8,130 nucleotides of DNA from Spartobacteria bacterium (GTDB lineage: Bacteria > Verrucomicrobiota > Verrucomicrobiia > Chthoniobacterales > Terrimicrobiaceae). Every line of letters starts with the position of its first letter. Position 1 is the first letter of the stretch. This document shows positions 154 to 8,130 of the stretch, one piece after another. The translations under genes and the position numbers were made by a program. The notes under the pieces were generated by a model. It had not been told where the DNA came from and did not search any database. It saw only the letters and a program-made list of their open reading frames with translations. The DNA lies in the NCBI GenBank assembly GCA_947487745.1, contig CANKXQ010000051.1, positions 1 to 8,130 on the forward strand, given 5' to 3'.

Positions 154-935
154 ATGAGACAAAATAAACATTCTTCTGAATCATTGTCAACATTTCCCGC
201 AAATTTTTTTAAATCTTCCGCCCAACCTGTTTTCCATTCCATTGGCACGCCATTCCACTCGATTTTTAGGCCGGCGGACTGCAAAGCATGCCGTTTTAAA
301 AACAGCCGTTTCTGGAGAGCGAGGGTCCAGCCGGTTTGGATAAACTCAAGATAGCAATCCTCTGAAGGCCCATAGATTTTGTCTCCCACCACGGGGTGGC
401 CGGCATGGGAGGCGTGAACTCGAATCTGGTGGGTGCGCCCGGTGACAGGTTGCGCCTCGACCATGGAAAAACGCCCCGCCGTGTTTTCGATATTTTTCAA
501 TACGCGAAAATGCGTTTTAGCATGGGCTCCTGCAGGGTGGACCATCCGCTTGAGATGAATCTTCGTTGGCTCAACTTCCCCCTGTCTGATGATTGGCGCA
601 TCAATGGAAAAAAACTCCTCGCTTGGGTGCCCGCATAGGATGGTGAGATAGGTCTTTTTTATCTTTCCCTCTTGCATCGCGATGGCCGCTTGGCGCGCGG
701 CGGCAGCGTGTTTTGCGACCAATACCAATCCACTTGTCTCGCGGTCGAGACGGTTGATCAACGAGACCTGTCCCGAATTGGCGATTTCATAGCAAAGAAG
801 CTCTCTCAAGCCGTCCCAAAGAGTGCGCGTTCCATCGGGCTTGCTGGGGTGCACGAGGAGGCCTGCTGGCTTGTCCACAACCAAAAGGTCGGGAGTCTCG
901 CCGATAATCCGGAACTCTTCTTGATCCACGAGCAT
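150..935 (-). CDS. RluA-family RNA pseudouridine synthase
   Basis: The 261-residue product is predicted to convert specific uridines of rRNA or tRNA to pseudouridine in the cytoplasm. Visible family signatures are the N-terminal motif LLVVDKPAGLLVHPS (residues 17-31), the catalytic motif NRLDRETSGLVLVAK (61-75) with the active-site Asp at 64, and GRTHQIRVH (166-174), typical of RluA/RluC-type enzymes. There is no S4 RNA-binding domain in front of the catalytic domain, so it resembles short stand-alone members (RluA/TruC-like) rather than RluC/RluD. Which uridine it modifies cannot be read from the sequence. The ATG at 935 was chosen because the fold's first strand begins almost directly after it. 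It has no Shine-Dalgarno sequence. Only 23 bp separate this start from that of the divergent ABC gene, so each promoter must lie at least partly inside the opposite gene. The stop overlaps the next gene by ATGA. Confidence 0.93.
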   Translation of the reverse strand: MLVDQEEFRIIGETPDLLVVDKPAGLLVHPSKPDGTRTLWDGLRELLCYEIANSGQVSLINRLDRETSGLVLVAKHAAAARQAAIAMQEGKIKKTYLTILCGHPSEEFFSIDAPIIRQGEVEPTKIHLKRMVHPAGAHAKTHFRVLKNIENTAGRFSMVEAQPVTGRTHQIRVHASHAGHPVVGDKIYGPSEDCYLEFIQTGWTLALQKRLFLKRHALQSAGLKIEWNGVPMEWKTGWAEDLKKFAGNVDNDSEECLFCLI

Positions 936-958
936 GAGATGTCGAGTATGACTGGCTC

Positions 959-1648
959 ATGGTCTCACTGCAAAACGTCACGCGCATTTATTCCTCCGGG
1001 ATCGGGGAGGTTCGCGCATTGGATGGCGTCTCGCTTGATCTCGAGTCTGGGGCTTTTGCTACGATCACCGGCCCCAGCGGGTGTGGAAAAAGCACGCTGC
1101 TCAATCTCCTTGGCGGGCTTGACCACCCGACATCGGGTGAGATTCGCGTTGCTGGCATTCCCTTGCACGATGCAGGTGAGGCCGAGCTCACCCGCTACCG
1201 TCGCCACACGCTCGGTATTGTCTTTCAATTTTTCAACCTCCTCCCTGCCATGACAGTTCGCGAAAATGTGGAATTGCCATTGCTCTTGCGCGGCGAGTCG
1301 GCCTCGCTCGCGACTACAAGAGTATCGGAAATGCTCGACCTCGTTGGGTTATCGCATCGAGCCTCCCATTTTCCCCATCAGCTCAGTGGCGGTGAGATGC
1401 AGCGAACTGCCACGGCGAGGGCCTTGGTTGGACGCCCGGCACTCCTCTTGGCTGATGAGCCGACAGGCAATCTTGACTCCGCCAATGCCGCGATGGTTTG
1501 CGAGACGTTCTCAAAGATTGCTTCCCAAAAAATTGCCACCTTGATTATTGTCACGCACAGCGACTCAGTTGCCGCACTGGCGCCGGTTCGTATACAAATG
1601 CTCGATGGAAAAATACTCTCCAAAAGTGACTCTGGCTTTGCATCCTGA
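959..1648 (+). CDS. ABC transporter ATP-binding protein, LolD/MacB-type
   Basis: This 229-residue protein is the ATPase subunit of an ABC system that powers a partner membrane permease from the cytoplasmic side. Walker A is GPSGCGKST (38-46), the Q-loop is VFQFFNLLPAMT (88-99), the signature is LSGGEMQR (142-149), Walker B is ALLLADEPTGNLD (161-173) and the switch His is H200 in VTH. The text FFNLLPAMTVRENVELPLLL and DEPTGNLDS is characteristic of the LolD/MacB/FtsE-like clade, which moves lipoproteins or substrates from the inner membrane rather than importing solutes. No FtsX/LolC-type permease is in the window, so the partner is encoded elsewhere. Proximity to lipid A genes would fit lipoprotein export (LolD), but this is inference. 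ATG 959 is the first possible start after an in-frame TGA at 935-937. No Shine-Dalgarno is seen. Seventy bp separate its stop from lpxC-fabZ. Confidence 0.92.
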   Translation: MVSLQNVTRIYSSGIGEVRALDGVSLDLESGAFATITGPSGCGKSTLLNLLGGLDHPTSGEIRVAGIPLHDAGEAELTRYRRHTLGIVFQFFNLLPAMTVRENVELPLLLRGESASLATTRVSEMLDLVGLSHRASHFPHQLSGGEMQRTATARALVGRPALLLADEPTGNLDSANAAMVCETFSKIASQKIATLIIVTHSDSVAALAPVRIQMLDGKILSKSDSGFAS

Positions 1649-1718
1649 CACCCTGCAGTTCTGCATTTCGCCTCTTTCCCGATCCACCCGCATAAATCCT
1701 TAAAATCCCATTCGCACC

Positions 1719-3020
1719 TTGGAAAAACAACGCACACTTGCCTCATCCGCCAGCCTCACTGGCAGCGCTCTGCATACAGGCGAAAATGTCACCCTCACGA
1801 TTTTGCCCGCACCAGTCGGCCACGGCTTCAAATTTCAGCGCATCGATTTGCCCGATGAGCCGATTGTCGATGCCGCTGCCGCATATGTGAAGACCGTGGA
1901 GCGCGCGACCACGCTTGTCCAAGGCATGGTCAAAATCCACACAGTGGAGCATGTTCTTTCGGCTCTCACCGGAATGGGGGTGGACAATGCGCTCATCCAG
2001 ATGGATGCCAACGAGCCCCCAATCGGCGATGGCAGCGCATCCGAATACATCGCCCTCATCAACAAAGCCGGAATCATCGAGCAGGATGCGCCACGCCGCT
2101 ACATTGATATCCGCGAACCGGTCACCATCGAGTCCAACGGCTCGATCCTCGTCATTCTCCCAGATTCAAAATTGCGGGTCTCCTGCACGCAGGTCGGTCC
2201 CGAGGGGCGTTTCACCCAATTTCTTTCCACGGAAATCACTCCTGAGATTTACGAAAAAGAAATCGCCCCCGCCCGCACCTTTGTTTTTTACGAGGATGTG
2301 AAGCCCCTCATGGATAAAGGCCTCATCAAAGGCGGGAGCCTCGAAAACGCCATCGTCGCCAGAGGGGAGAGCGTCCTCAGCAAAGAGCCGCTTCGCTTCC
2401 CGGACGAGTTCGTTCGCCACAAGATTCTTGATATCGTTGGAGATCTCGCGCTCTCAGGTCGTTTCATCCGCGGGCATGTTGTTGCCGTAAAACCCGGCCA
2501 CGGCATCAATACCGAAGCCGCCAAACTTCTCGCCGAGCGCTTCAACGCCGTCGCGCCAGCCGCAGCCAAACCCGTTGCCGCCTCGCCGGGCGCTCTCGAC
2601 ATCAATGCCGTCATGCAGATCCTCCCGCACCGCTATCCTTTCCTCATGGTGGATCGCATTGTGGACTTCGATGGCGAGTTGAAAGCCACCGGCGTGAAAG
2701 CTGTCACCATCAACGAACCGTATTTTCAAGGACACTTTCCCAACCATCCCGTCATGCCAGGCGTTCTTCAACTCGAAGCCATGGCTCAGGTCGCCAGCAT
2801 TATCATGATGCGCCGCACGGAGAATGAGGGGAAAATCGGCTACTTCATGAGTGCCGATGAAGTCAAATTCCGCAAACCCGTCATGCCCGGTGACACACTC
2901 TTCATCGAGTGCGAACTCACCAGCGCTAAAAAACGCCTCGGCAAGGCCGCTTGCCGCTGCTTGGTCAATGGCGAGGTCGTCTCCGAAGGAATCTTGCTTT
3001 TTGGTCTTGTCGATAAATGA
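1719..3020 (+). CDS. lpxC/fabZ: Bifunctional UDP-3-O-acyl-GlcNAc deacetylase / 3-hydroxyacyl-ACP dehydratase (LpxC-FabZ fusion)
   Basis: This is a natural fusion of 433 residues. Residues 1 to about 278 are LpxC, the zinc deacetylase that commits UDP-3-O-acyl-GlcNAc to lipid A. Visible are KQRTL at the start, E77-H78 in TVEHVLSAL, H234 and D238 in FVRHKILDIVGDL, and H261 in PGHGIN, matching the zinc ligands and catalytic His of the family. An Ala/Pro-rich linker (about 279-292) leads to FabZ (about 293-433), which dehydrates 3-hydroxyacyl-ACP in fatty-acid elongation. It shows ILPHRYPFLMVDRI, GHFPNHPVMPGVL with catalytic H339, and E353 in LEAMAQ. Both enzymes use 3-hydroxyacyl-ACP-derived flux, so fusion couples lipid A and membrane fatty-acid supply. 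TTG 1719 is the start because it places M-E-K-Q-R-T-L exactly where other LpxC proteins begin, and the first in-frame ATG is at residue 70. There is no Shine-Dalgarno. A TAAAAT (1701-1706) is a possible -10 box with no clear -35. Confidence 0.96.
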   Translation: MEKQRTLASSASLTGSALHTGENVTLTILPAPVGHGFKFQRIDLPDEPIVDAAAAYVKTVERATTLVQGMVKIHTVEHVLSALTGMGVDNALIQMDANEPPIGDGSASEYIALINKAGIIEQDAPRRYIDIREPVTIESNGSILVILPDSKLRVSCTQVGPEGRFTQFLSTEITPEIYEKEIAPARTFVFYEDVKPLMDKGLIKGGSLENAIVARGESVLSKEPLRFPDEFVRHKILDIVGDLALSGRFIRGHVVAVKPGHGINTEAAKLLAERFNAVAPAAAKPVAASPGALDINAVMQILPHRYPFLMVDRIVDFDGELKATGVKAVTINEPYFQGHFPNHPVMPGVLQLEAMAQVASIIMMRRTENEGKIGYFMSADEVKFRKPVMPGDTLFIECELTSAKKRLGKAACRCLVNGEVVSEGILLFGLVDK

Positions 3021-3790
3021 CAAAAATCCATCCCAGCTCGGTCATCGACCCCTCTGCGACTCTGCACCCCGGTGTTGAGGTCGGGCCATTCTGCCACATC
3101 GGCCCTCAGGTCGAGATTGGGAGCGGCACTCGTCTTCTCGGCCATGTATCTATTGCAGGACCGACACGCATCGGGGAGGGGAATATCTTTTATCCTTATT
3201 GCTCGATCGGTCAGCGCTCGCAGGATCTGAAATACACCTCCGAGCCGACCTTTCTGGAAATCGGAAACAACAACTCATTTCGAGAATTTTGCACCGTCAA
3301 CCGTGGCACCCTGCCGGGAACCAAGACGGTCGTTGGCAATCACGGAAATTTTCTCGCCTACTCGCACATAGCGCACGACTGCATCGTTGGTGACCATGTT
3401 ATTTTTTCCAACAACGGCACAATCGCAGGTCATGTCACTGTCGAGGATCATGTCATTATCGGCGGCCTTTCCGGAGTCCATCAGTTTTGCCGCCTGGGCC
3501 AGCATTCCATCGTGGGTGGTTGCACGAAAATTGTTCAAGATGTCCCCCCCTATATGATCGCTGATGGCAACCCGGCCGAAGTCCGTGGCATCAATCAAGT
3601 CGGACTCGAGCGGCGAGGTTTCGTGGCCGAAGACACGCGCACGCTTCGCGAGGCCTACCGCCTTCTTTACCGCTCGAACCTGAATGTGAAACAGGCCTGT
3701 GAAAAAATCGCTTCCGATTTTTGCGGACCTGATGTCATCTCCCGCTTGCTGGCCTTTGTGGAGTCGAGTCAGCGGGGTATCATTCGCTAA
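3017..3790 (+). CDS. lpxA: Acyl-ACP--UDP-N-acetylglucosamine O-acyltransferase (LpxA)
   Basis: LpxA transfers a 3-hydroxyacyl chain from ACP to the 3-OH of UDP-GlcNAc, the first step of lipid A synthesis. The cytosolic enzyme is a homotrimer. The 257-residue length is normal. Residues 1 to about 185 are hexapeptide repeats forming a left-handed beta helix (for example [20 protein letters not shown]). The active-site segment AYSHIAHDC contains H117 and H120, the equivalents of E. coli H122 and catalytic H125. [14 protein letters not shown] and [20 protein letters not shown] are hallmark LpxA stretches. The C-terminal helical domain (about 186-257) ends ESSQRGIIR, close to the E. coli ending STRGLIR. 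The ATG overlaps the lpxC-fabZ stop as ATGA (3017-3020), so the two are co-transcribed and translationally coupled. The acyl-chain length it prefers cannot be decided by eye. Confidence 0.97.
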
Positions 3791-3795
3791 CCTCA

Positions 3796-4811
3796 ATCAC
3801 CGCTCTGCCCACCGTTCACGCCTACGCAGCCCACTCGCCAACCTCTCCGCTCGAACCTTTCACCTACGAACTCCCGCCCATCGGGCCCGAGCATGTGGAC
3901 ATCCGCGTCGAATACTGTGGCATCTGCCACTCGGACCTCAGCATGCTCCGCAACGAGTGGGGTTTTTCCACATACCCGCTCGTCCCCGGTCACGAAGTCG
4001 CGGGACGCGTCGAGTCTGTGGGAACAATGGTTAAAAATCTCGCCCCCGGCGACCGTGTCGGCCTCGGCTGGTTTTCCGAAAGCTGCATGACCTGCCCCCA
4101 ATGCATGGGCGGCGACCATAATCTCTGCGCCACGGGCGAGGGGACCATTGTCGGCCGCCATGGCGGCTTCGCCGACCTCGTTCGCTCCACTGGGCCTGGG
4201 CCACAAAACTTCCTGACTCACTCTCTTCTGTCAGCGCCGGACCGCTCTTCTGCGGCGGAATCACGGTCTTCAGTCCCATCCTTGAATTTGGTGTCCGCCC
4301 CACGGATCGCGTCGGAGTCATCGGCATCGGCGGTCTTGGCCATCTTGCTGTCCAATTCCTGAACAAATGGGGATGCGAGGTCACGGCCTTCACCTCATCG
4401 CTCGACAAAACCGAGGAACTCAAAAAACTCGGCGCCCACCGTGTTGTGAACTCACGCGACGCAGAAGCCATGAAATCCGAAGCCAACCGCTTCGACTTCA
4501 TCATCAGCACAGTCGCCGTTCCGCTCGACTGGATGGGTTACATCACCGCACTCGCCCCCAAAGGCCGCCTCCACACAGTCGGCGCCATTCCCGAACCCGT
4601 CTCGCTCGGCGCATTTCCGCTCATCATGGGCCAGCGGTCCTTTTCTGGATCCCCCCTCGGCAGCCCCGCCACCACCGCGCGTATGCTCGACTTCTGCGCC
4701 AGACATCAAATCGCCCCGTTCGTCGAGGAATTCGCCCTCTCGGATGTCAACGCGGCCCTCCACCGACTCGAAAAGGGCAGTCCAAGATACCGCATCGTTC
4801 TCAAAGCCTGA
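3796..4811 (+). pseudogene. Zinc-dependent alcohol dehydrogenase (CAD/YahK-like), frameshifted and lacking a normal start
   Basis: Two reading frames together encode one medium-chain zinc alcohol dehydrogenase of about 335-338 residues, close to the usual 345-350. The first frame has [10 protein letters not shown], the catalytic-zinc region YCGICHSD and PGHEVAGRV, and the structural-zinc cysteines of [15 protein letters not shown]. Around 4186-4190 homology jumps frame: [17 protein letters not shown] (the NAD(P) dinucleotide loop) and the rest, ending RIVLKA, are read in the next frame. Restoring one C in tcc|cac at 4186-4188 joins them exactly. Upstream, frame 1 is open from 3733 but holds no ATG, GTG or TTG until GTG 3895, which would cut off about 30 residues of the GroES-like domain. 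CTG 3805 or ATC 3796 lie where the start should be. Two defects suggest a recent pseudogene, although a sequencing error could explain the frameshift. It lies just after lpxA without an evident promoter. Confidence 0.85.
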
Positions 4812-4969: not shown

Positions 4970-5014
4970 CCCTCATAAACACTCGCTCTGCGGGCGGGTA
5001 GGGTTTAAAAATAG

Positions 5015-5326
5015 CCAAAGTGGGAAAGAAAGTGGGAGAATGTCCACGGATTTCCTATCATCGGAGCTTGGAAAGGCTTTCATTCATGGAACTTCACCTT
5101 CCGTGGCACGAAATACAAAGCCGCGCAGAGTGAGCTTCTCAAGTCCGTGCGCGGAGTGGCGCAGGAAGCCAAGGCGGAACCCAAAGCAATCCGCGAAGTC
5201 AAAAAAGACCAAAGCAGCGCCCAAGGGCGAGGCCCCCGACAACCCAAGTTAATGCAGAAACCAAAAAAAAGTCCGAGAGTAATAACCAAGCAACCGAGCA
5301 GCCTAACCCAAGTTTCGCATGGGTGA
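5015..5326 (+). pseudogene. Open start-less frame, possible gene remnant, unrecognised
   Basis: The frame runs from just after a TAG (5012-5014) to TGA at 5324-5326, about 103 codons, with no ATG until far inside (about 5255). The peptide includes VHGFPIIGAWKGF, then NFTFRGTKYKAAQSELLKSV, followed by a Lys/Ala/Glu-rich tail. The first part looks like ordinary protein sequence and the tail like a low-complexity charged region. I do not recognise the family. An alternative is that it is not coding and the open frame is chance. An ATG at 5086 lies in another frame and stops after 15 codons. Confidence 0.25.
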
Positions 5327-5342
5327 CTGGAAAACCGCATAA

Positions 5343-5522
5343 AACCTAGGGGGGCTTTCCAAAGGCACTACAATCTCTTCAGGCCGGGAACAGTTGTTTT
5401 TGCTTCGGCAATTGCTGGGCGGAACATGCGTGAAGCTGGGATTTGAAAATAAAAGCAGCGGGGCGAGGCACTATCACTTGCGCATCGGTGGAAAGTCATT
5501 GGACGATTTTCTGGGGCAGTGA
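5343..5522 (+). pseudogene. Start-less C-terminal fragment, weakly LAGLIDADG-endonuclease-like
   Basis: Between a TAA at 5340-5342 and TGA at 5520-5522 there are 59 open codons without an ATG. The peptide contains QLFLLRQLLGGTCVKLGF, then SSGARHYHLRIGGKSLDDFL. A helix ending in a hydrophobic stretch, followed by Y-x-L-R-I-x-G-x-x-x-L-x-x-F, is the kind of pattern seen in one half of LAGLIDADG homing endonucleases. The similarity is by eye only and the acidic LAGLIDADG helix itself is absent. It may be the tail of a lost endonuclease or another domain, or chance. Confidence 0.25.
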
Positions 5523-5584
5523 AAGTAAAATCAGAAAACAGCCGATTCATCATCCATGAGCTTCCGCAGGCTTTTGAGCGGGGG

Positions 5585-5656
5585 AGCCGACGACGAGATT
5601 CGAACTCGTGACCTATCGATTACGAATCGATTGCACTACCACTGTGCTACGTCGGC
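5585..5656 (-). tRNA. tRNA-Thr (anticodon CGT), no encoded CCA
   Basis: Read on the minus strand, the acceptor GCCGACG (5656-5650) pairs with CGTCGGC, leaving a T discriminator at 5585. The D arm contains AGTGGTA. The anticodon stem ATCGA/TCGAT encloses TTCGTAA with anticodon CGT, reading the threonine codon ACG. The T arm has ACGAG-TTCGAAT-CTCGT. The sequence after the discriminator is CCC, so CCA is not encoded, unlike the tRNA-Gln nearby. Its 5' end sits exactly where AT-rich DNA with the integrase begins, so its promoter must lie in, or have been replaced by, that DNA. Confidence 0.95.
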
Positions 5657-5706
5657 GTTTAAATAACTGATTTCCAACTGCTTTTGCTTCTGAAAAATGA
5701 TCTAGA

Positions 5707-5738
5707 TTGACTATGCGAATATACTGTGTATGTATACT
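5707..5738 (+). promoter_or_regulatory. Possible promoter of the integrase gene
   Basis: TTGACT (5707-5712) resembles a -35 box and TATACT (5733-5738) a -10 box, but the 20-bp spacing is longer than the usual 17. Another TATACT lies at 5720-5725 without a matching -35. If the distal -10 is used, the transcript would begin only a few bases before ATG 5750. Confidence 0.25.
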
Positions 5739-5749
5739 TTAATTTCCTC

Positions 5750-6820
5750 ATGCCCACAAAAACTGTCAAATCCAAAAGCACAAATAAAATCTGGAATAAA
5801 GTTGCGGGGTTGTCAAATTTTTACCGGTATAAAAATGGCAACTATTATTTCCGAGGTAAAGTCAAAGGAAAAATTCGCCCAATTTGCCTTGATACACAAG
5901 ACAAGGATATAGCCAAAAGAAAACTGCTGGAAGTTCAGCGTCAGATCAAATCGTCCATCGGTGAAATAACCTTCATCGAACTACTAGACCTCTACAGGAA
6001 GTCGCGCGGGGGACGAAATGAAAAAACCATAATGGATGTTTACCGTAGACTCAAAAAGCATCCTGCAACGGCTCGTATGCTAGTGCGAAAAATCAAGCCA
6101 GTCCACATCACAGAATACTTCGCGTGTATTGACCTCAATCCCAGAATGCACAATCTAAATGTCGAAACACTGAAGGCTGCACTTCAGTATGGCGTAGACA
6201 ACGATTACCTCCTTACAAACCCCTTTTCGAAACTTCACAGGTTCCGTAAAAAAACCAAAAGAATCGTTCCTGTTATTCCGACTCTGGAAGAATTCGAAAT
6301 CATAATGCTGTATATTCTTTCGAATACATATTCGGATACAGCAGAAAAAGCCTACGACCTAGGAATGTTTATTGGTCTTGCTGCGCTTGGTGAAGCCGAA
6401 GCACGAAACTTAAAGTGGCAGGATATCAATTGGGAAACGCAAAGAATAAAAATAAAAAGAATCAAGACAGATACCGACTTCGAGATTCCAGTTTACAAAT
6501 GGTTAAAGCCACATCTTTTAGATTTATTTGAACGGTCTGGGCAACCTAAAGTTGGTCAAGTATTTAAATTGAAAACAATAAAAAGATCATTGGAATCCGC
6601 TTGTGAATCGCTGGGATTTGATCTCTTTACCCCTAGAAACTTGCGACAGATGGGAATCATTCATCAGTTGGAAATTGGTTTAAAGCCAAAAATTGTGGCA
6701 AAGTATCAAGGTCACCAAGATGGAGGAATTTTGATTATGAACACATACTCGGAGGTCATAAATCGGGACGAAGATAAAAATCTGAACTTGATTTTGTTGA
6801 ACTTAGGAGTTGTCGAGTGA
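5750..6820 (+). CDS. Tyrosine-recombinase-family integrase with atypical active site
   Basis: The 356-residue protein has the layout of a phage/ICE integrase. There is a basic N-terminal arm-binding region (about 1-65, with YRYKNGNYYFRGKVKG), a SAM-like core-binding domain (about 72-165) and a catalytic domain (about 175-345). In the catalytic domain, box I reads GLAALGEAEARNLKWQDI (209-226), where the usual catalytic Arg (G-L-R-x-G-E) is absent. K239 in RIKTDTDFEIPV fits the beta-hairpin Lys. Box II is TPRNLRQ (294-300), with R299 kept but Arg in place of the usual His. H322 in QGHQDGG and nucleophile candidate Y333 in NTYSEV follow. I recall similar GLAGLGQAEA-type integrases from Verrucomicrobia, so this may be a natural subfamily and not a dead enzyme. 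ATG 5750 is preferred. GTG 5726 would add eight unconvincing residues. No Shine-Dalgarno is seen. It runs away from tRNA-Thr and its TGA abuts the stop of the convergent HTH gene. Confidence 0.88.
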   Translation: MPTKTVKSKSTNKIWNKVAGLSNFYRYKNGNYYFRGKVKGKIRPICLDTQDKDIAKRKLLEVQRQIKSSIGEITFIELLDLYRKSRGGRNEKTIMDVYRRLKKHPATARMLVRKIKPVHITEYFACIDLNPRMHNLNVETLKAALQYGVDNDYLLTNPFSKLHRFRKKTKRIVPVIPTLEEFEIIMLYILSNTYSDTAEKAYDLGMFIGLAALGEAEARNLKWQDINWETQRIKIKRIKTDTDFEIPVYKWLKPHLLDLFERSGQPKVGQVFKLKTIKRSLESACESLGFDLFTPRNLRQMGIIHQLEIGLKPKIVAKYQGHQDGGILIMNTYSEVINRDEDKNLNLILLNLGVVE

Positions 6821-7144: not shown

Positions 7145-7150
7145 GAGCTT

Positions 7151-7179
7151 ATCATATCAAGAAATTTATAATATGTCAA
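7151..7179 (-). promoter_or_regulatory. Sigma70-type promoter of the HTH gene
   Basis: On the minus strand, TTGACA (7179-7174) is separated by exactly 17 bp from TATGAT (7156-7151), followed by AAGCTC and ATG at 7144. The -35 box is consensus, the -10 box matches five of six bases and the spacing is ideal. Transcription starting 7 nt after the -10 would begin on the A of the ATG, giving a leaderless message. A second TTGACT lies just upstream (7186-7181). Confidence 0.65.
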
Positions 7180-7269
7180 TAGTCAAGTTGCTATTTTGTA
7201 TATATTTATAAGTAGAATGAAATAAGATAAACTTAATCTATTTTTTGCATTTTACCTATATATATCCTC

Positions 7270-7308
7270 ACACATATGAAATTTCAAAAATTTCATATGT
7301 GTTTTTTT
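7270..7308 (+). terminator. Perfect 15-bp hairpin followed by a T-tract
   Basis: ACACATATGAAATTT (7270-7284) is the exact complement of AAATTTCATATGTGT (7288-7302) with a CAA loop, and seven Ts run from 7302 to 7308. This is an intrinsic-terminator layout on the plus strand, though the stem is AT-rich. No protein gene on the plus strand ends just before it, so it either ends a short RNA starting near 7190-7230, guards against read-through, or is a protein-binding dyad rather than a terminator. Each arm itself contains the palindromes CATATG and AAATTT. Confidence 0.55.
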
Positions 7309-7328
7309 CGTTCAAGCCAGCATTTTCT

Positions 7329-7416
7329 CTTTAAATGGGCTTTAGAATCGTCGCAACTGATGAGTGCTGTCACGATATTCCCTGACAACCCAAACCTCAT
7401 ATAAGCCATTTTAAAG
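7329..7416. repeat. Long imperfect inverted repeat with nested hairpin
   Basis: CTTTAAATGGGCTT (7329-7342) pairs with AAGCCATTTTAAAG (7403-7416) at 12 of 14 positions. Inside, TGTCA (7368-7372) pairs with TGACA (7383-7387). The nested arrangement is what a folded RNA or a replication-initiation structure would look like. Nothing identifies a known RNA family. Confidence 0.35.
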
Positions 7417-7694
7417 CGATGGAGAAACCGCTGAATACGAAAAATGAAATGAAATAAAATCTAGATCGAAATGTTTATGATCCAGATACCCTAAAACCAC
7501 GCATTTTTTGCAATATTTTTAGCATATTTTGAAGAAAAGTCCCTTATTCGTGCAATTTTATCCAAAGAAGTGAGTCATCTTGGCGCAGTATAAAACAATT
7601 ACCTTGAATATTTTAGATTATCTTCCCATTGATCAGATGAGAAAATAAGGCTTCGCATCATTTATTACACCCAGTCAGTCAAAAAATTTTAGTT

Positions 7695-8130
7695 TTAGTC
7701 TAACGGTATTGTGTAACCTAATCGAGTTAGGCAAGCCTTGTTTATTAGTTCAATTGCTGCGTCTCTATCTTTTTCTAATACGCACAATCCATCGTGCATC
7801 GGTAAATTCCAAAATTCTGCCTTCATAAATACCTCATCAACGAAAATAGAAGATTCCAGTTGCTGCAAACACATCTGAAATGTTGTCTTTCTTTTCTTTA
7901 ATTCTCTCATTTTCAGTGCGACATCTGGAAATTTCTCCTCATACCAACGACCGATTTCCAATACTTTAGGGTCTTTAGTAGCTCTTCCAGATAACCATTT
8001 TTGCAGCAATACCTTGATTTTATCTCTGGGATTATCTTTATCGACAAAAATCTCGTAAAAGTCCTTTCGAGCAATAGCCAAATATTGTTCCCTTTGATTT
8101 TTGTCTGCAATAAACGAAGCAATAAGATTA
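7695..8130 (-). CDS. C-terminal part of a family A / single-subunit-type polymerase-like protein
   Basis: The frame is open from the right window edge (first full codon at 8129) to TAA at 7697-7695, giving 144 residues. A TTG at 8081 could be mistaken for a start, but the frame continues upstream, so the gene's beginning lies outside. PRDKIKVLLQKWLSGR (window residues 34-49) has R35, K39 and G48 spaced as R-x3-K-x8-G. This is the same spacing as motif B of Pol I (R754, K758, G767) and T7 RNA polymerase (R627, K631, G640), with Ser where the motif Tyr usually stands. NLPMHDGLCV contains H112-D113, matching motif C (HDE in Pol I, HDS in T7). QQLESSIFVDEVF between them fits the helix before motif C. 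Motif A would lie beyond the edge. Whether it makes DNA or RNA, or is only related in fold, cannot be told. Its downstream neighbours on the element are the HTH gene and the integrase. Confidence 0.55.
   Translation of the reverse strand, partial: NLIASFIADKNQREQYLAIARKDFYEIFVDKDNPRDKIKVLLQKWLSGRATKDPKVLEIGRWYEEKFPDVALKMRELKKRKTTFQMCLQQLESSIFVDEVFMKAEFWNLPMHDGLCVLEKDRDAAIELINKACLTRLGYTIPLD

Follow-up and report, generated by a model that had tools for sequence, protein, structure and literature searches.

We propose, at a probability of roughly 60%, that the window analysed here, an 8,130-base stretch from a Spartobacteria bacterium, encodes at its right edge the C-terminal third of a protein of the transposon-virus polymerase (TV-Pol) type, a compact family A enzyme carried by an element inserted in a tRNA-Thr gene and most likely priming and copying that element's DNA. 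The window makes up the entire contig G000:C51 in a fragmented assembly (1.5 Mb in 234 contigs, 64% complete), and the polymerase gene was therefore cut by the assembly. About 250 residues fall beyond the contig edge, and no further pieces of the gene were found in the same genome's contigs. The sequence-only reading had described a frame running off the window; the frame is indeed open there, although the edge is the end of the contig and not a mere window limit.

A predicted polymerase fragment and its relatives

The frame runs unbroken for 144 residues, from position 8129 to 7695. The signature that first drew attention to it, R-x3-K-x8-G (motif B) followed by HDG (motif C), is real and was read correctly: R35, K39, G48 and HDG at 112–114 stand where they had been placed, and K39 and D113 lie 74 residues apart, as had been counted. 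In 200,000 shuffles of the fragment the complete signature arose at a rate of 2e-5, against 1.1e-3 when R-x3-K-x8-G was followed by HD alone, so that HDG carries much of the weight. The first residue in the window is 7 residues after the motif A Asp column of the close-family alignment (A4), and the C-terminus is 31 residues past the motif C Asp.

A protein search with the fragment returned five metagenomic relatives, 66–71% identical, four covering 99% of it and one 53%. A profile built from four of the five and the window (A3) then matched at least 45 proteins at E ≤ 0.01. Of the 45 matches listed, 35 are 383–412 residues long, giving the relatives a full length of about 400, and none carries a precomputed Pfam domain. 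The close family was aligned as A4 (38 rows: 37 of the 45 matches and the window, leaving out the eight short pieces P0001–P0005, P0038, P0042 and P0043). A wider alignment, A6, has 22 rows: 15 of the 37 proteins, the window, and six other relatives drawn from five genomes of the phylum and one viral contig.

Full-length relatives carry the catalytic residues of the family. Motif A reads I-D-A-K-S-F-H-P in most A4 rows, and its Asp, whose presence could be checked on relatives only, occurs in all 37 A4 rows and all 21 A6 rows having that column. The Arg and Lys of motif B are each present in 38/38 A4 rows and in 21/22 A6 rows (one row has K for Arg, another N for Lys). The motif C Asp is found in all 37 A4 rows with a letter there, P0041 being truncated and without motif C (for A6, see Table 1). 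An Arg before the palm (R219 of P0006), outside the sequenced part of the window, is present in 37/37 A4 rows. The distance from motif B Lys to motif C Asp is 73–76 residues in the 37 of 38 A4 rows having both and 72–84 in all A6 rows, compared with 122–125 in 18 of 18 PolA sequences from the same class. The latter range agrees with the 124 residues that the sequence-only reading had quoted for Pol I. Conservation of the spacing among relatives settles that the signature of the fragment is genuine.

A structure check had also been suggested, and was run on P0006, a full-length relative 69% identical to the fragment. Its predicted model (predicted local distance difference test score, pLDDT, of 88) has a family A polymerase fold: all of the best 50 PDB matches are family A DNA polymerases, with the matching part starting at about residue 147. 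The motif A Asp and motif C Asp are predicted to form a two-metal active site. Neither of the outcomes that the sequence-only reading had named as refuting it, a missing motif A Asp or an unrelated fold, was seen in the relatives. The order of helices and strands in the model is compatible with a winged helix in the N-terminal domain; this assignment is not established, as Pfam helix-turn-helix matches were sub-threshold and a single-sequence model of the N-terminus of the viral relative L007 reached a pLDDT of 49.

Sequence databases gave little for the fragment: no Pfam family at E 10, no NCBIfam match, a best PHROG match of E 0.058, and only two cytochrome nitrite reductases (E > 0.5) among PDB sequences. 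The PolA family DNA_pol_A (PF00476) matched neither the fragment at E 10 nor the 22 A6 members at E 1, for which the only Pfam matches were stray ones (best E 0.006), and the A4 profile matched no PDB sequence up to E 10. The results for the fragment in Pfam, NCBIfam and PHROG are what one would see if the motifs were a chance match in an unrelated protein. We take that explanation as refuted, and next to impossible, because of the predicted family A fold and the conservation of the motifs in the A4 relatives; the shuffle rate of the full signature also speaks against it.

The sugar gate was examined at the columns matching E710, F762 and Y766 of E. coli Pol I, namely motif A Asp +5 and motif B Lys +4 and +8; we take Y766 to be the third gate position, and part of the residue numbering is likewise assumed. 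In motif B of the window, Gln and Ser occupy the Phe762 and Tyr766 positions. Across A4 the gate is His (37/37), Gln (38/38) and Ser (36/37), where PolA sequences have Glu (18/18), Phe (17/18, one Tyr) and Tyr (18/18). The A6 rows have His 17, Gln 2, Val 1 and Asn 1 at the E710 column, Gln 17, Met 2, Lys 1, Tyr 1 and Thr 1 at the F762 column, and Ser 17, Phe 2, Ala 1, Gly 1 and Gln 1 at the Y766 column. The Tyr-to-Ser change in motif B noticed at the outset is thus genuine, and is accompanied by the two further changes to His and Gln. That such features make the polymerase unusual is not supported: the short motif B-to-C region is found in 22/22 A6 rows, and Ser in 36/37 A4 and 17/22 A6 rows.

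T7-type RNA polymerases keep the motif B Tyr. A single-subunit RNA polymerase, transcribing the element or making RNA primers only, is very improbable given the Ser at this position (Lys +8) in all but one of the A4 rows with that column; DNA polymerases also make up the rest of the structural match list, and no promoter-binding domain was identified. Of the three Pol I gate residues, E710 and F762 are described as ribose-discriminating in the available part of PMC7581432.

TV-Pols were defined by Iyer, Abhiman and Aravind in 2008 (PMC2579912) by a core with an Arg hairpin, two Asps, RxxxK and a two-helix thumb, in proteins of 400–600 residues with no previously known domain and no joined nuclease. 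Their hosts include verrucomicrobia and their neighbours lambda-type integrases, many are linked to D5-like helicases, resolvases or transposases, and they were predicted to have primase and polymerase activity (PMC2579912). The window protein resembles them in its minimal core residues, a length of about 400 amino acids in relatives, the lack of a known domain and a mobile-element setting with an integrase. It differs in its insertion in tRNA-Thr and its excisionase-type neighbour, and in that the sister element described below carries a further tyrosine recombinase, with no helicase recognised. Since signature, size and setting fit TV-Pol, both the reduced B-to-C stretch and the Ser in place of Tyr are traits of that family, and the window adds one more member to a family first described in 2008 rather than revealing a new polymerase type. 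A Sputnik-type virophage fusion of TV-Pol and D5 (Zamilon V6BPG7) shares the predicted polymerase fold (Foldseek E 1.9e-4, 17% identity), whereas the window protein is without its C-terminal helicase module. With Pol I (PF00476) the family shares a predicted palm, fingers and thumb, the R...K of motif B, the motif A Asp and the HD of motif C; it differs in the shorter Lys-to-Asp spacing, the changed Glu/Phe/Tyr gate, and the lack of a nuclease domain and of a Pfam match.

An origin from the host's own PolA was considered and dropped, the usual PolA (PF00476) seeming to be missing in the window's order. Among 19 relatives, PF00476 was found in two (E 5.5e-58 and 1.2e-42), each time on a small contig; in a sample of the class, two of 21 genomes of the order had a match, neither near the 1e-140 or better seen in other orders. 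That many Verrucomicrobia have lost Pol I has already been published, as stated in the accessible portion of PMC12926913.

TV-Pol genes were found at low counts, in genomes that are often fragmented. Searches with the fragment found one in 3/197 genomes of the order (own genome included) and 2/387 of the phylum, and the A4 profile in 4/387 of the phylum. Pattern scans of viral contigs (fragment, A3) gave no relative and those of genome contigs (A3, A4) none, yet later searches of GTDB genomes did find relatives, and such scans are no evidence of absence. By tblastn, named phages had no match to P0006 or P0044, and named plasmids none to P0044. Scanning viral contigs with A4 gave one match, on L007. 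This TV-Pol (3459–4577 of an IMG/VR viral contig) lies a few kb from genes that by eye appear to be for packaging and portal; a phage may use a TV-Pol-type enzyme as its polymerase.

An insertion in tRNA-Thr and a complete sister element in tmRNA

The integrative element suspected beside the polymerase was confirmed and its ends located by comparison with relatives in which the tRNA-Thr site is intact. Window positions 5383–5657 match contig L019 of the same genus (G117) at 95.6%, up to the 5' end of tRNA-Thr. Another contig of the window's own genome, C36 (L018), matches L019 from the other side (4050–8247, 94.4%) and ends inside tRNA-Thr. On L019 the two matches overlap by 38 bp, the block common to the window and C36 (Table 1). 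L020 has the same overlap but less flank (112 columns, 92%), and on L021 it covers little more than the tRNA (an intact site, tRNA only). This overlap on intact relatives makes the window one end of the element and C36 8248–9611 the other, and the two likely belong to one insertion, not to a tandem pair; the part of the element between them is absent from the assembly. In the window, G+C is 0.55 left of tRNA-Thr and 0.36 right of it; C36 8248–9611 has 0.41 and contains a tyrosine recombinase (rec2; PF00589, 102.8 bits) that runs off the contig.

Table 1. Coordinates of features in the window and in the complete sister element L029
Locus	Feature	Coordinates	Strand	Remarks
Window	C-terminal 144 amino acids of TV-Pol-type polymerase	7695..8129, stop included	-	Cut by contig edge; part after motif A (palm and fingers)
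Window	Motif B, R35-x3-K39-x8-G48 (RDKIKVLLQKWLSG)	7986..8027	-	
Window	Motif C, H112-D113-G114	7788..7796	-	H and D in 22/22 rows of A6
Window	tRNA-Thr (anticodon cgt), integration target	5583..5656	-	
Window	38-bp attachment repeat, tRNA-Thr 5' half and one base	5620..5657		Identical to C36 8247-8210, same genome
Window	Tyrosine integrase, 364 amino acids	5726..6820	+	PF00589 30.8 bits, cut-off 27.1; PHROG integrase E 1.3e-28
Window	Excisionase-type helix-turn-helix protein, 107 amino acids	6821..7144	-	PF12728 37.5 bits (cut-off 27); TIGR01764 37.4 (cut-off 28.8)
Window	550-base stretch without an open reading frame of 60 or more amino acids wholly inside	7145..7694		Between excisionase-type gene and end of TV-Pol gene
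L029	Integrase frame	299-1786		
L029	TV-Pol	2048-3154		
L029	Lectin-like protein	3535-4800	Opposite to TV-Pol	PF13385, E 5.6e-12; apparent cargo
L029	Second tyrosine recombinase, rec2	5685-6311		
L029	Exact 22-bp repeats	334-355 and 6522-6543		6188 bases apart

The window integrase reads GLAALGEAE where four aligned recombinases have GLR..E, and its box II is without the usual His; rec2 on C36 keeps both the box I Arg and the box II His. Judged from its sequence, the window integrase seems to lack the box I Arg, and it may be impaired or rely on another recombinase. The noncoding stretch behind the TV-Pol gene has no Rfam match; at 7270–7302 the perfectly matched 15-bp arms of an inverted repeat flank a 3-nt loop, with a T run behind them on the plus strand, a possible terminator or replication site.

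A complete TV-Pol element of 6.2 kb lies in the tmRNA gene of a genome from another family of the order (L029, G130). Its G+C of 0.43 compares with 0.58 and 0.52 on its two sides, and it also holds an open reading frame (ORF) of 82 amino acids. Its site was compared with seven loci of relatives in its genus. In three of these (L062, L065, L066) the tmRNA end joins the right flank with a 22-bp overlap, L065 beginning inside the tmRNA; three others (L063, L067, L068) have the tmRNA, then four matching flank bases, an unaligned stretch and more flank, and L064 begins beyond the site. Besides TV-Pol no replication gene was recognised in L029, neither a helicase nor a partner resembling a single-stranded DNA-binding protein (SSB); small ORFs were scanned by Pfam only and OB folds not by structure, so a partner could be missed. 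Without a recognised helicase, unwinding would have to come from the host.

Six TV-Pol loci of the phylum could be compared. A tyrosine integrase adjoins the gene in three (the window, L028 and L029) and a serine recombinase accompanies it in one (L027 of G320, at 4.4 kb). L028 (G472) has tRNA-Pro, an integrase (PHROG E 1.6e-12) and TV-Pol in the order and on the strands seen in the window. In L026 (G381), a locus only partly scanned, an excisionase-like helix-turn-helix gene (PHROG E 6e-4) follows TV-Pol, and in L030 (G153) no recombinase was seen by eye, without a domain scan.

The rec2 proteins of L029 and C36 are 81% identical over 159 amino acids; the match between the L029 and window integrases is short (36% over 61). 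This close type of short tyrosine recombinase (about 210 amino acids) occurs in seven places in 6/197 genomes of the order: C36 itself (L018 9133–9609) and six at 72–86% identity, one of them over 123 amino acids only. Some rec2 match is found in 191/197 genomes, mostly at 35–42% identity and presumably to XerC/XerD. We considered rec2 as a dedicated partner of TV-Pol; this is not shown, only two of the seven places being linked to TV-Pol, G130 directly and C36 through the shared insertion. Each of the other five (L079–L083) lies 93–302 bp from a different tRNA gene (Ala, Tyr, Lys, Gly, Tyr), and the A6 profile found no TV-Pol on these contigs, which end within 0.6 kb of rec2 on the non-tRNA side. 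The recombinase may mark a wider family of tRNA-targeting elements.

Left of the element, a gene that by eye resembles zinc alcohol dehydrogenases (3895–4811) is split over the frames 3895–4362 and 4446–4811, likely by a frameshift or an assembly error. The roughly 600 bases between tRNA-Gln and tRNA-Thr (4970–5580) hold only ORFs of up to 104 amino acids and are possibly the remains of an older insertion next to tRNA-Gln.

Priming, gap filling or decay

The sequence-only reading proposed a minimal and possibly unusual polymerase of an integrative element. The family A core and the tRNA-Thr element bear out its first part, the unusual nature is not supported, and a role in replication, priming or transcription for the element remains an inference. 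In the mechanism that we favour, the element would excise and the enzyme would start synthesis on single-stranded element DNA, possibly de novo. The polymerase would then extend the started strand, by which the element would be multiplied or made double-stranded, and the copy would reintegrate at such a site.

Other close comparisons are family A polymerases of other mobile elements for which priming is proposed or proven, CCPol-MP and the PolA-SSB primases (available parts of PMC7581432 and PMC10061031). CCPol of SCCmec retains the two Pol I residues for ribose discrimination (E174, F225) and has MP and the Cch2 helicase as its partners; alone it is an active polymerase, and it gains priming only with MP (same part of PMC7581432). 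The window family has His and Gln for CCPol's Glu and Phe, and no partner or helicase was recognised. CCPol's behaviour without MP favours a primer-dependent enzyme that fills gaps or makes second strands from ends made by other proteins, without priming; it might, for example, act once the element has been transferred as a single strand, or while the element integrates. Second-strand synthesis after transfer is one role proposed for PolA-SSB primases (PMC10061031, in the part available), and the lack of a recognised SSB-like partner or helicase in L029 also fits. We regard this alternative as rather unlikely: with no other replication gene recognised in the element, a self-starting enzyme fits better.

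That the element is decaying, its polymerase no longer made or active, is improbable. The contig breaks inside the gene in an incomplete genome, leaving much of the protein out of sight, and the adjoining integrase is without the box I Arg of aligned recombinases, which is compatible with a relic. Against this, the frame is intact over the sequenced residues, where motif B, motif C and the conserved Q and E that separate the two motifs are all retained, and both element ends still carry the identical 38-bp repeat.

Several results weigh against a priming and copying enzyme of the TV-Pol type. No partner of the MP type, which CCPol needs for priming, was recognised here, nor was a helicase in the complete sister element. 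The polymerase gene could be broken in its unsequenced part, motif A included. Profile comparison with the 18 PolA sequences gave no significant link by sequence alone (E 0.095 at 0.6% probability and E 0.024 at 2%). Microcystis phage LMM01 is listed in PMC2579912 without a gene; we take MAP_030, which adjoins transposases, to be the listed TV-Pol, and its pairing at motif A, motif C and the Arg is weak (hhalign E 0.0022 at 13% probability; hmmsearch E 0.55–1.8). A loose motif pattern run on LMM01 matched two irrelevant ORFs and missed MAP_030.

A more far-reaching form of the favoured mechanism, which we think quite unlikely, is that such elements are one-protein replicons. An N-terminal part of about 150 residues would bind the element's own origin, and a palm without the Pol I gate (His, Gln, Ser) would begin new strands de novo from ribo- or deoxyribonucleotides; a helicase, an SSB and a separate primase would then not have to be encoded by a 6-kb element.

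New here are the placement of the element in tRNA-Thr(CGU) with its ends located, and the complete sister element in tmRNA. In a limited literature search we found no description of a TV-Pol element integrated in tRNA-Thr or tmRNA, though one could be in print. Standalone TV-Pols thereby gain a fixed setting: the ends of the element and intact sites are located, and one complete example, of 6.2 kb, has TV-Pol as its sole recognised gene for replication. Because the sugar gate is uniformly changed in the close family, a single purified protein would be enough to test RNA against DNA priming. Should the enzyme prime unaided, it would be a primase-polymerase of family A of very small size.
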